A stretch of DNA of 64,000 nucleotides from Paludisphaera soli (GTDB lineage: Bacteria; Planctomycetota; Planctomycetia; Isosphaerales; Isosphaeraceae). Below, piece after piece: positions 23,073 to 27,109 of this stretch (position 1 is the first letter of the stretch; every line of letters begins with the position of its first letter). The stretch is from NCBI RefSeq assembly GCF_011064595.1, contig NZ_JAALJI010000001.1:186001-250000 (forward strand), read 5' to 3'. Both the position numbers and the translations under genes were made by a program. The notes beneath the pieces are model-generated. The model was given only the letters and a program-made list of their open reading frames with translations. It was not told the origin of the DNA and did not search any database.

Positions 23073-23137
23073 GGCGCGAGGTCCCCCGCCCGGGGCGTGG
23101 GGACGCCGGCCAGGCCACCTTGATGCAGGAGTCGCAG

Positions 23138-24091
23138 ATGGAAAAGCGGAAGATCGGCCGTTCGGAGCTGGAGGTCGTCCCGCTCGCCCTGGGGGGCAAC
23201 GTGTTCGGTTGGACGATCGACGAGGCGGCGTCGTTCCGGATCCTCGACGCCTTCGTCGCCGCCGGCCTCGACTTCATCGACACGGCCGACGTCTACTCCC
23301 GATGGGCCGCCGGCAACCAGGGGGGCGAGTCCGAAACCATCCTGGGCAGGTGGCTCAGGCAGTCCGGCAAGCGCGACCAGATCGTCCTGGCGACCAAGGT
23401 CGGCATGGACATGGGCGACGGCAAGAAGGGCCTGAGCAAGGCCTACATCCTCCGCGCCGTCGAGGACTCGCTGAAGCGATTGCAGACCGACCGCATCGAC
23501 CTCTACCAGACCCACAAGGACGAGGACCCCGGCACGCCCCAGCAGGAGACGCTGGAAGCCTACGACCACCTCATCAAGCAGGGGAAGGTCCGCGTCATCG
23601 GCGCCTCGAACTTCACCGCCGCGCGGCTCGCCGAGGCCCTCAAGATCGCCGCCGAGCACGGCCTGCCGCGATACGAGTGCCTCCAACCCCACTACAACCT
23701 CGTCGAGCGAGCCGGCTACGAGGCCGAGCTGGAGCCGCTCTGCCGCCGGGAGAACATCGGCGTCATCCCGTACTATTCGCTCGCCAGCGGCTTCCTGACC
23801 GGCAAGTACCGGAGCGAGGCCGACCTGTCCAAGTCCGCCGCGCGGAGCGGGAACGTCAAGAAGTACCTCAACGACCGCGGCTTCCGCGTGGTCAAAGCGC
23901 TCGACGAGGTCGCCGCCGCCCTGAACGCCAAGCCCGCGAGCGTCGCCCTCGCCTGGCTCATCGCCCGCCCCGGCATCACCGCCCCCATCGCCAGCGCGAC
24001 GAGCGTCGAACAGCTCGACGACCTGATCCAGGCCGTGGATCTCAAGCTGGACGCCGGGGCGATCCGGAAGCTGGACGAGGCCGGCGCGTGA
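23138..24091 (+). CDS. Aldo/keto reductase
   Basis: 317 residues, the usual length. The catalytic tetrad is visible: D48 in FIDTAD, Y53 in DVYSRW, K87 in ATKVG and H126 in QTHKD. NADPH-binding residues are expected in the C-terminal third (ASATSVEQLDDL). The barrel repeats are regular, and DGKKGLSKAYILRAVEDSLK is the standard helix region. The start with CAGGAG 7 bases upstream is preferred over an ATG 15 bases earlier that lacks one. Cytoplasmic reduction of aldehydes or ketones is the general role; the substrate is unknown. It is monocistronic and followed directly by a REP-like repeat. Confidence 0.93.
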   Translation: MEKRKIGRSELEVVPLALGGNVFGWTIDEAASFRILDAFVAAGLDFIDTADVYSRWAAGNQGGESETILGRWLRQSGKRDQIVLATKVGMDMGDGKKGLSKAYILRAVEDSLKRLQTDRIDLYQTHKDEDPGTPQQETLEAYDHLIKQGKVRVIGASNFTAARLAEALKIAAEHGLPRYECLQPHYNLVERAGYEAELEPLCRRENIGVIPYYSLASGFLTGKYRSEADLSKSAARSGNVKKYLNDRGFRVVKALDEVAAALNAKPASVALAWLIARPGITAPIASATSVEQLDDLIQAVDLKLDAGAIRKLDEAGA

Positions 24092-24127
24092 GGCCGTCCG
24101 CCTGAGCGTCCGGCCGCCTCGTCGAAA

Positions 24128-24173
24128 GGGAGCATCACGAGGGGAGCCTTGTAGGGTGGGCACCGCCCACCGC
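24128..24173 (+). repeat. REP-like element upstream of the RAYT gene
   Basis: GGTGGGC (24155-24161), loop ACC, GCCCACC (24165-24171) form a perfect small palindrome. It is preceded by GGAGCATCACGAGGGGAG, which recurs at 25788-25805. The unit starts GTAGGGTGGGCACC as in the copy at 25660. Confidence 0.75.
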
Positions 24174-24202
24174 TTTGAGGCCCCGGAATGGAGGGGCGGA
24201 CG

Positions 24203-24778
24203 TTGCCCAACTACCGTCGCGCTTACGTCCCGGGTGGCACCGTCTTCCTGACGGTCGTCACGTACCGTCGCGCGCCGATCCTCGACGGACCGGCGAATGT
24301 GGCAAGGCTGCGGCAGGCGCTCGGGCAGGTGATGTGCGAGACACCATTTCGCATCCCCGCGGCGGTTGTCCTCCCGGATCACGCGCATTTCCTCTGGTCA
24401 CTCCCCCGGGGTGACGCGGATTACTCGCGCCGCGTCGGCCGGATGAAGGTCCTGTTCACCCGATCGCTCCAGGGGCGCGGGGTGGCCAGCGTCGGCACCA
24501 GTCGGTCGAGGCACCGCCACCGCGAAAGCGACGTCTGGCAGCGGCGGTTCTGGGAGCACACCGTCGAGAGCGAGGAGGAGTTCGAAGCCCTCATGGAGTA
24601 CATCCATTACAATCCAGTGCGGCACGGGTTGACGTCGTGTCCCCACCTCTGGCCGTACTCGAGCTTCGACCGTTGGGTCCAAGCCGGTCTCTACCCCAAG
24701 CATTGGGGTTGTAGTTGCGACGGCCGAACGCCAGTGTTGAAGCCCAATCAGCAAGTCGAGGAAATAGCCGGCGAATGA
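24203..24778 (+). CDS. REP-associated tyrosine transposase (RAYT, IS200-like Y1 family)
   Basis: 191 residues. The typical opening PNYRRAYVPGGTVFLTVVTY is followed by the metal-binding HUH-type motif in LPDHAHFLW and the catalytic tyrosine in YIHYNPVRHG. These are single-domain Y1 nucleases that act on REP palindromes as single strands. A TTG start with GGAGGGG 6 bases before it matches the family N-terminus; an ATG 15 bases upstream is possible but has no ribosome-binding site. Downstream, the sequence is less G+C-rich than the core genome. REP-like palindromes lie on both sides (24128-24173, 24788-24818, 25661-25722, 25786-25850), as expected for a REP/RAYT pair. All catalytic residues are intact, so it may be active. 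Confidence 0.88.
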   Translation: MPNYRRAYVPGGTVFLTVVTYRRAPILDGPANVARLRQALGQVMCETPFRIPAAVVLPDHAHFLWSLPRGDADYSRRVGRMKVLFTRSLQGRGVASVGTSRSRHRHRESDVWQRRFWEHTVESEEEFEALMEYIHYNPVRHGLTSCPHLWPYSSFDRWVQAGLYPKHWGCSCDGRTPVLKPNQQVEEIAGE

Positions 24779-24787
24779 CCCCGGGGG

Positions 24788-24818
24788 GCGATGCCCACCC
24801 TGCTGGACTTGCCGGCGT
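24788..24818 (+). repeat. Half REP element downstream of the RAYT gene
   Basis: GATGCCCACCCTGCTGGACTT, then TGCCGGCG, matches the right arm and flank of the copy at 25711-25737 (TGCCCACCCTACTGGACTTG, then GCCGGCGAA). It lies 10 bases after the RAYT stop. Confidence 0.65.
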
Positions 24819-24951
24819 TGGAAGCCAAGGCTGTCAGTACGGTAGTGGTGCTTGGGTCCATCGACGAAGCTCTCCCAGGTGTCGGAACGAGTGCGGCCAC
24901 GCCGTCCGACGAGCCATCCTAAGTCCACCCCAGACGCCGAAACGACCGGAC

Positions 24952-25494
24952 TTACGCTTCCTTCGCCTGTTCCGGGTCGATGGCCCAGAGCACGTTGTCC
25001 GGCCTGATGGCGACATCGACCCCGCATCCAGGGCATGTCACCTCTTCGTCGCCCGTCCACGGGTAAGTTCGAGCCTGGATGACGAGTAAACGCAGGGTGC
25101 TCACGAGGAACTTCTGACACACCGGGCAGCGGACCGACATGAGCACTGCTTCGTTATTGACCCGGTAGTTCTGGAAGAGATTCGGACCTACCCTCTGCCG
25201 CAAGATCCGCAACCGATCTTTGATGGTCGCTCGCTGCTCTTCCGGGCAGCCATGGTCAACGATGTAATGGAGCAGGCGGTCGAAGGGGAAATGGAGCGAG
25301 GTCCCCTTTCCGTCCCCCCATGCCCCGTTCGCCTGGAGGGCTGGACTGAAGCTCCGACAGTCCGGCGATATGGTGACGGCCCCCACGCCGCATTCTTGAG
25401 CTTGAGGGGTGCTGCACCACTCATCGCAGAGCCCCTGAAGACGAGTATGCCCAAGATACATCACTTCGGGGAACGGCTCGAACGGCTCCGACAT
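24952..25494 (-). CDS. Hypothetical zinc-ribbon protein
   Basis: 180 residues, not recognised. Two cysteine knuckles, CPVC (123-126) and CPGC (154-157), form a zinc ribbon in the C-terminal third. Other cysteines lie at positions 23, 27, 35, 46 and 83. The N-terminal part is mixed alpha/beta without known motifs. The start is supported by a GGAG 9 bases upstream; a longer frame to 25560 lacks one. The gene is visibly less G+C-rich than its neighbours and sits between REP-like repeats beside the RAYT gene, so it is probably an acquired gene. Possible roles include nucleic-acid binding; nothing in the sequence proves it. Confidence 0.6.
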   Translation of the reverse strand: MSEPFEPFPEVMYLGHTRLQGLCDEWCSTPQAQECGVGAVTISPDCRSFSPALQANGAWGDGKGTSLHFPFDRLLHYIVDHGCPEEQRATIKDRLRILRQRVGPNLFQNYRVNNEAVLMSVRCPVCQKFLVSTLRLLVIQARTYPWTGDEEVTCPGCGVDVAIRPDNVLWAIDPEQAKEA

Positions 25495-25660
25495 GGATGT
25501 GGTCTCCAAGGCGTGTAGGATATCGACGTACAGTGTACGCCTGCTTCCGCACGAAGGCAAGCGAATGTTGCCTTCTCAGGGTTTCACCCACGAAATTCGG
25601 GGGATGGCGCATGCTGAAGACCGGCAGTGTCACCCATCTATCCCCATAACTTCAGCCATG

Positions 25661-25722
25661 TAGGGTGGGCACCGCCGACCGGGATTAGTCCACGGCCTAG
25701 CAGGTGGGCGGTGCCCACCCTA
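25661..25722. repeat. Complete REP-like inverted pair
   Basis: Left arm TAGGGTGGGCACCGCC (25661-25676) and right arm (25707-25722) are perfect 16-base reverse complements, separated by 30 bases. The arms match the RAYT-flanking copies. This would form a long hairpin or a BIME-like pair of REPs. Confidence 0.8.
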
Positions 25723-25785
25723 CTGGACTTGGCCGGCGAATGATGCGGAAGTTCGTCGTCCGCACGAGGGACTGCCAAACTTCGA

Positions 25786-25850
25786 AAAGGAGCATCACGA
25801 GGGGAGGAAGGATGTGCCGTCCGCTTGCGCGTCGGGCTCCTCCCCTCGTG
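25786..25850. repeat. Second palindromic element sharing sequence with the RAYT flank
   Basis: CACGAGGGGAGGA (25796-25808) and its reverse complement (25838-25850) form a perfect 13-bp stem. The left arm with its flank GGAGCATCACGAGGGGA also occurs at 24129-24145. The rest of the 25495-25927 gap holds nothing else recognisable. The element is 78 bases beyond the stop of the minus-strand RdgC-like gene and could act as its terminator. Confidence 0.65.
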
Positions 25851-25927: not shown

Positions 25928-27109
25928 TCAGGCGGCGGCGGTGAGCCAGCGCTTGATTCGGCCGACTTCTTCGGCCCAGGAGTTGGCGGTCTTGCGGGCG
26001 CGGTAGGCGTCGAAGAGGAGGTCGAGCGTCTCGGCGAAGTGCCGGAGGCCGTCGATCCGCTCGCACTTCGCCTCGTAAGGGGCGAGTCGTTCCTCGGGCT
26101 TCGGGAGCTGGGCGCCGGTGACGGCGAGGCTCTCGGCCTGGATGGTGAACTCGTACTGCATGCCGTGGCGGACGACGATCAGGCCGGCCTTGCGCGGGAG
26201 CTTGCCGGACTGCAGGGCGCGGAAGGCCTCGGGGAGCCGCGTCGGCGAGTCGTCGGTCAGGCTGTCGCGGCCGGTCTCGCCGCGGGGGCAGTCCAGGGTC
26301 AGGGTCTTGGCCAGCATCACGGCGACTTCGGTGCCGTCGGAGAGCGGGATGGTGTCGCTCTCGTTCTGGAGCTGGTGCCAGAGCCAGACCAGGAACTCGT
26401 TGCCCAGGTGGTCGAGCATGTTCGGGGCCTTCTCGGCCCAGGCGACGGTGGAGAGCTGGTCGCCGCTGTCGCCGCCGTAGAGGTTCAGCGAGCCCTCGCC
26501 GAGCTTCTGCGCGACCCGGTCGGACTCGGCCAGCGACTCGTGCGAGCCCATCGCCAGCGACCCGGCGGTGATCGGCTCCAGGGGACGCTCGAAGGTCTCG
26601 CGGAAGAGCGCCGTGGCCCGCTCGACGACGTTCGAGCTGGTGGAGCCGACGTAGAGGATCTCCTGGCGGCCGTCCCAGAGGATCGGGTAGTGGTTGCTGC
26701 GGCGGAACCGGCCGTCGGAGGCCTCGGACTCGGCGCGGGCCTTGGCGGCCTCCTTCGCCTCGGTGCGCTGGGCCCTCGTCGGCGTGCCGCTCGGGTTCAT
26801 GGCGGCGCGGGCGTCCAGCTCGATCTGGGTGTAGGCCTTCAGCAGGGTGCCGGGGATCTTGTCGGTGTCGACCCGGATCGAGGCGTGGAGGGCGTCGTTG
26901 ATGAGGTTCTTGGCGAGGTCGAAATTGACGTCGAGGACGTGGCCGCCGCCCCCCCAGCCGGTGCTGACGCCGTCGGTCGGCTCGGCGGGGCTGTGCTTGC
27001 CGATCTTGTGGCTTTCCAGCTTCTCCAGCGTCTCCTCGGAGAACGGCAGCGGCGACGGGCCGCCCACGCGGAACCGGGTGAAAGTCATTCGTCCGTTCAG
27101 GAAGCCCAT
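25928..27109 (-). CDS. RdgC-like protein (tentative)
   Basis: 393 residues, not firmly recognised. The layout resembles RdgC, a DNA-binding ring protein that modulates RecA: an N-terminal strand and loop (GFLNGRMTFTRFRV), a central charged helix (AQRTEAKEAAKARAESEAS), then a strand (YPILWDGRQEILYVGSTS) and an amphipathic helix with a phenylalanine-rich end (ATALFRETF). It is longer than the ~300 residues of classical RdgC, with extra C-terminal sequence. GAGGAGG precedes the ATG. It is transcribed after YajQ with a 160-base gap. Its position at the edge of the REP/RAYT island may be chance. If not RdgC, it is an unknown planctomycete family; confidence is limited. Confidence 0.5.
   Translation of the reverse strand: MGFLNGRMTFTRFRVGGPSPLPFSEETLEKLESHKIGKHSPAEPTDGVSTGWGGGGHVLDVNFDLAKNLINDALHASIRVDTDKIPGTLLKAYTQIELDARAAMNPSGTPTRAQRTEAKEAAKARAESEASDGRFRRSNHYPILWDGRQEILYVGSTSSNVVERATALFRETFERPLEPITAGSLAMGSHESLAESDRVAQKLGEGSLNLYGGDSGDQLSTVAWAEKAPNMLDHLGNEFLVWLWHQLQNESDTIPLSDGTEVAVMLAKTLTLDCPRGETGRDSLTDDSPTRLPEAFRALQSGKLPRKAGLIVVRHGMQYEFTIQAESLAVTGAQLPKPEERLAPYEAKCERIDGLRHFAETLDLLFDAYRARKTANSWAEEVGRIKRWLTAAA

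Follow-up and report, generated by a model that had tools for sequence, protein, structure and literature searches.

A REP/RAYT island between two convergent genes

The window analyzed here is a stretch of 64,000 nucleotides, positions 186001-250000 of contig C1 in the 7.97-Mb, 197-contig genome of Paludisphaera soli (here the own genome, G000). The locus lies between an aldo/keto reductase gene on the plus strand (23135-24091, PF00248) and a convergent 393-aa gene on the minus strand (25928-27109). The latter, which we had presumed to be 'rdgC-like', has no Pfam or NCBIfam match and is hence called unnamed. Between the two lie, in order, a REP, a RAYT (REP-associated tyrosine transposase) gene, an inverted REP, a zinc-ribbon-like gene and an inverted REP pair.

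The first REP (24151-24171, plus strand) contains the palindrome reported in the original prediction, GGTGGGC-ACC-GCCCACC, with a perfect 7-bp stem and a GTAG foot in front of it. The RAYT gene (24188-24778, plus strand) encodes 196 aa and is followed by an inverted REP (24783-24803, minus strand) with a GCAG foot and two mismatches to the consensus, one of them in the stem. This element had been described as a half copy; it is in fact whole, if slightly degenerate. The three features form a compact REP-RAYT-inverted REP core of 653 bp (24151-24803). Beyond the core come the accessory gene (24952-25494, minus strand), which encodes 180 aa with two CxxC pairs, and two further REPs, the left with one stem mismatch (25660-25680, plus strand) and the right perfect (25703-25723, minus strand). 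Inverted at short distance and 20/21 complementary, the two make up a 64-bp pair of the REPIN or BIME type (25660-25723). A perfect 16-bp inverted pair had been placed at 25661-25722; the pair stands, while the full REPs carry the left-stem mismatch. The anatomy of the locus is established, and the match to the RAYT family model together with the inverted REPs that frame the gene bears out its description as a REP/RAYT island.

The RAYT gene and its relatives

The window RAYT scores 171 bits against the NCBIfam model REP_Tyr_transpos (NF047646, cut-off 80) and 31.5 bits against Pfam PF01797 (cut-off 23), and reaches 20 bits against the IS200 model NF033573, whose cut-off is 55. Its HUH (residues 65-67) and tyrosine (Tyr138) site is intact, as had been proposed: H65-A-H67 and Y138 are invariant in 13/13 aligned RAYT sequences, the window's included. 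The gene is present as a single copy in the own genome, with two remote relatives (33% and 32%).

Scanning the named genomes returned at least 590 matched stretches, at least 581 of which were confirmed as RAYT relatives; the best 80 were kept. The nearest relatives among the matches listed are cyanobacterial and planctomycete. Hairpins with a GTAGG or GTGGG foot and a stem of at least 7 flank the RAYT on both sides at 51/80 loci (best 80 of at least 581), compared with 0/369 control windows from the same loci, and at 45 of these best 80 a plus-strand hairpin upstream is combined with a minus-strand hairpin downstream. A looser hairpin rule, applied to the same 80 of at least 581, found some hairpin at 75/80 loci and the motif on both sides at 49/80. 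In the window too, GT[AG]G-footed palindromes lie on both sides of the gene, the upstream one perfect and the downstream one degenerate, and we counted the degenerate downstream REP against reading the core as a REPtron. Stems vary between the loci compared and the foot is mostly constant, a pattern known for RAYT/REP pairs from the sections of PMC6006769 available to us.

At four of the loci (L152, L165, L167 and L218) a REP-like match lies within the RAYT gene itself, a situation described in part of PMC6006769 for TnpA-REP subclass 2.4. Additional REPs also occur 0.5-8 kb from the RAYT in some of the best 80 loci, a count without a background estimate on which we base no claim. RAYT relatives were seen on 24 plasmid records, all below 60% identity and 12 of them from Escherichia, with nine predicted to be conjugative and two mobilizable. 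The 15 that were listed include six E. coli records carrying the name rayT and four larger than 1 Mb, and the plasmid copies were set aside as evidence on mobility in either direction.

REPs in the own genome and its congeners

The exact REP palindrome, with a free loop, occurs at 12 places in the own genome and the reversed pattern at none; the REPs are therefore not due to chance. With foot and palindrome allowed up to one mismatch, and the reversed pattern on both strands as control, the own genome holds 26 matches against 6 + 5 = 11, which confirms that the REP recurs elsewhere and establishes a REP family. Across the five congeners the total is clearly above control only in G003 (34 against 6 + 3 = 9). 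The totals of G001 (17 against 11 + 6 = 17, with 5 exact matches) and G005 (9 against 2 + 6 = 8) equal or approach the control and are uninformative, and G002 and G004 hold one match (control 5 + 6) and two (control 4 + 9), respectively.

No close RAYT is present in G002, G003 or G004. The difference between 26 matches in the own genome and one or two in G002 and G004 counts in favor of the REPtron reading. The 34 matches of G003 speak against a simple link between RAYT and REP, although a lost RAYT would explain them. G003 itself has ten or so regular REP pairs 53-60 bp apart, perhaps left behind by such a lost RAYT.

In the own genome, 23 of the 26 matches merge into 15 units (C1:741464, C126:44880 and C149:7541 were excluded by eye as not being REPs), and 9/15 units, again counted by eye, are inverted pairs. 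Next to a REP cluster near 62.96 kb of contig C79 lies a separate dispersed repeat, some 65-90 bp long and matched many times across the own genome (L087:5958-6023).

The accessory gene and other REP-bearing spots

As the original prediction had it, the island contains a zinc-ribbon gene of low G+C content, 60.8% compared with 70.7% across the window, and of 634 stretches of 600 bp its own ranks third lowest. Homologues are found in 3/148 genomes including the own and in 0/5 congeners, which establishes its accessory status. The G062 homologue (39%) aligns from the same methionine, and that of G008 (37%) is only partial, with an internal stop. The gene has no family above cut-off in Pfam or NCBIfam, and an origin as a phage gene found no match in the phage collection.

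A second ORF between REPs, at 84.3 kb of contig C176, has a similar distribution, being present in 5/99 genomes including the own and in none of the five congeners. At six other loci, homologues of these two genes carry no GTAG or GTGG hairpin at the gene ends, and REP flanking of the homologues was rejected for these six loci; in L092 one 6-bp hairpin lies about 600 bp away.

Most likely, the zinc-ribbon gene is a passenger acquired by an intergenic spot that tolerates additions. In its plainest form, this means that REPs and foreign genes gather at the spot independently of one another, with no functional link between the RAYT and the gene, and we regard such passive accumulation as somewhat the better bet. 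The passengers' lack of REP flanks elsewhere agrees with it, as does the REP-pair spot at C1:637-642 kb, where the spacing of the flanking genes is different in each of the five congeners. That variable spot (L086) holds two REP pairs which, by eye, enclose a short CxxC ORF. Passive accumulation alone does not account for the way REPs and ORFs alternate in G001, as described below. It is compatible with our preferred reading of the locus, of which it is the plainest version.

An empty site in G002 and a duplicated palindrome arm

On the aldo/keto reductase side only G001 and G002 are informative among the five congeners (in G005 the contig stops at this point, and the stretches compared in G003 and G004 contain no such gene). 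Both flanking genes are adjacent in G002, with no RAYT or REP in between, so that the island at 24.1-25.9 kb is missing from this congener and an empty site is established. The absent segment comprises 1,635 bp (24147-25781) and was either inserted here or lost there, a direction of change that is left to inference: the flanking-gene trees (short alignments, supports 62-95) fit both a loss of the island and its original absence in G002.

The palindrome at 25796-25850 had been put forward as a second element of the REP system. It is a palindrome, and its right-flank alignment to G002 scores 81 (best of 300 shuffles 32). Because G002 keeps it without the island or a RAYT, it is resident DNA, probably a terminator common to the two convergent genes, and its identity as a REP is ruled out. 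The reuse of a segment of this palindrome beside the upstream REP was correctly noted: its left arm is duplicated at the island's left edge, as a 25-bp direct repeat (24122-24146 and 25782-25806, plus strand) that is 24/25 identical (best of 150 random placements 19/25). Its copies bracket 24147-25781, the left edge lying 4 bp from GTAG and the right edge 58 bp past CTAC. Another 22 bp (24093-24114 and 25816-25837, 86%) are also shared, in the opposite order.

It had been suggested that the flank pieces occur in a different order, as if several mobilization events had reshuffled them. The opposite order holds for the 22-bp piece; the flank segment, however, is not dispersed. It has two exact copies in the genome, both at this locus, and its other matches, at 2-3 mismatches, number 17 against 14 with the reversed pattern, which rules it out as a dispersed repeat. 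Since the palindrome arm is not dispersed genome-wide, and belongs to a palindrome that G002 keeps without a RAYT, repeated mobilization of the flank pieces is unsupported, and the reshuffling comes down mainly to the duplication of a single arm of a resident palindrome. The simplest reading is a single local duplication at the island edge plus accumulation of REPs, which does not account for the 22-bp piece in opposite order. Target duplication, local duplication and recombination are all possible origins of the edge repeat.

Were the repeat a target-site duplication, the whole 1,635-bp island could have arrived in one insertion. Such an event would fit the near-perfect repeat at the edges of exactly the segment that G002 lacks, and the right-flank homology to G002, which begins at about 25780, 2 bp ahead of the repeat. 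The left side does not match this picture, as the left flank with its repeat copy scores 29 against G002, no better than the best of 300 shuffles (33), and the 22-bp piece runs in the opposite order. IS200/IS605 members are said, in the part of PMC2817692 seen, to make no larger target duplications, and the near-identical units of G025 (below) have none. G001 moreover has a related RAYT at the corresponding position, and the RAYT may hence predate the near-identical repeat. We therefore consider a single insertion rather improbable.

A broken RAYT at the corresponding locus of G001

At the same locus, G001 has a RAYT that is broken, with 73% identity over residues 3-121 and the remainder in another frame, along with roughly 5 kb of further sequence. 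The latter includes four ORFs: a member of the erythromycin-esterase family (PF05139, 133.9 bits), an unnamed ORF of 310 aa, a DUF1254/DUF1214 ORF and one of 92 aa with CxxC pairs. The window's zinc-ribbon gene has no match in G001. REPs at six boundaries separate the four ORFs and the broken RAYT, and 17/18 REP-like matches (up to 4 mismatches) in the 11-kb stretch fall inside the island, a count in which one palindrome may appear on both strands.

This arrangement raises the question of whether REPs delimit cassettes, such that the RAYT would cut at distant REPs and move or capture the intervening DNA, the zinc-ribbon gene would be cargo, and the island one state of a changing array. The different gene content of G001 between its REPs would fit this, as would the accessory ORF between REPs on C176. 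REP units also cluster: five adjacent pairs among the 15 units are no more than 1.7 kb apart, compared with a maximum of three (mean 0.05) in 20,000 random placements, although random placement ignores gene avoidance, most REPs being intergenic, and also possible local hopping; a concentration of REPs around their RAYT is described in the part of PMC8266576 consulted. A REP-bearing 1.2-kb segment of C79 is missing from all five congeners (flanks at most 15 bp apart in four, 218 bp in G005); this insert, however, ends away from the REPs. Several of the G001 REPs are degenerate (3-4 mismatches), and no two REP units of G003 lie within 1.7 kb of each other despite its 34 matches. With passenger homologues also free of end hairpins at six other loci, we think REP-delimited cassettes an unlikely explanation of the island.

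Near-identical REP-RAYT-REP units in G025

In G025, a genome of the same family, each of the six exact REPs of the local type terminates one of three RAYT-holding units (L234, G025:C1:690699-691332; L235, G025:C1:1489177-1489831; L236, G025:C1:5738965-5739619), and two further matches at 2 mismatches are the same palindromes on the opposite strand. Two of the units, of 655 bp each, are identical at 634/655 positions (96.8%) with their 187-aa ORFs intact, and the third is 76% identical, its RAYT in pieces. Similarity between the 655-bp units stretches 2 bp to the left of GTAG and 6 bp (CTTACT) to the right of CTAC; beyond this the flanks are unrelated, with neither a direct repeat of at least 5 bp beside the units nor a target duplication. 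These twins look like signs of IS-like mobility and hint at jumping of the complete unit. Gene conversion and segmental duplication are conceivable alternatives, but both boundaries of the unit coincide with REP feet, which argues for transposition.

G029 and G012 contain one RAYT pair each whose members are mutual nearest relatives among the 18 compared (71% and 67%). The REPs differ between the copies in both genomes, and clean ends were not seen. In G029 (L241/L242, RAYTs 71% identical) the flanking REPs share their first bases (GTAGGGTGGG) and diverge further in, possibly an instance of REP switching.

Discussion

We consider it highly probable that the window contains a GTAG-class REPtron lodged between two convergent genes, together with a REP pair and an accessory passenger gene. 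Judged by homology, its RAYT would be a Y1 HUH single-strand transposase that would bind GTAG-tagged hairpins as single-stranded DNA and cut and rejoin beside them. Cutting and rejoining of this kind may spread REP pairs (BIME/REPIN) such as the one at 25660-25723, and both the activity of the RAYT and its role as maker of that pair are inferred. The zinc-ribbon gene between the core and the REP pair would then be a passenger gathered in a tolerant intergenic spot. The island directly adjoins the resident palindrome, the left arm of which now lies on both sides.

The locus resembles known REPtrons (RAYT, or TnpA-REP) in its match to the RAYT model, its HUH and tyrosine residues, the GTAG foot, the inverted REPs on both sides and the presence of REP pairs elsewhere in the genome, as far as these systems are described in the sections of PMC2817692, PMC3733652, PMC6006769 and PMC8266576 available. 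A Haemophilus influenzae REP tabulated in PMC2817692, in the part seen, has the same core as the window REP (GTAGGGTGGGC..AGCCCACC), and GTAG repeats have been reported in the Planctomycetes group (PMC3733652, in part). Differences from known REPtrons are the low copy number in the own genome (15 merged units), the accessory genes between REPs in the window and G001, and the fact that in G025 the unit itself is multi-copy. The 64-bp inverted pair and the other pairs in the genome likewise resemble the REPIN/BIME elements of PMC3116915, as described in the part consulted; the foot-adjacent bases of the own genome, by contrast, are often AGTYYN (by eye), and the window pair has its stem mismatch. 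With IS200/IS605 the system shares a Y1 HUH transposase bordered by palindromes and, in G025, multi-copy units without target duplication, while the window RAYT falls below the IS200 cut-off and its unit is single copy.

According to a passage of PMC8266576, tnpAREP mobility has no evidence behind it. PMC3686654, in the part seen, describes genomes whose second RAYT occupies a novel site and interprets this as duplication or horizontal acquisition; this weighs against priority for the mobility of the unit, and we claim none. On RAYTs combined with gene cassettes or cargo, the literature searched yielded a single paper, a Pseudomonas genome comparison (PMC3390384).

The window REPtron thus belongs to a known kind, and the points worth following are the mobility of the unit, as seen in G025, and the REP-bounded accessory genes of the window and G001. 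In these planctomycetes the REP-RAYT-REP unit may be a compact self-mobile element rather than a domesticated one, and the same machinery may shuffle single genes between REPs, in the window and G001, to give a REP-bounded cassette array. We offer this combination as a speculation that is probably wrong as a whole; of its two parts, the self-mobile unit is the better supported. The clean-ended twins of G025, the empty site of G002 and the broken relative of G001 provide defined ends and targets for testing cutting and joining. Should REPs delimit gene cassettes as well, they would offer a route of gene gain.
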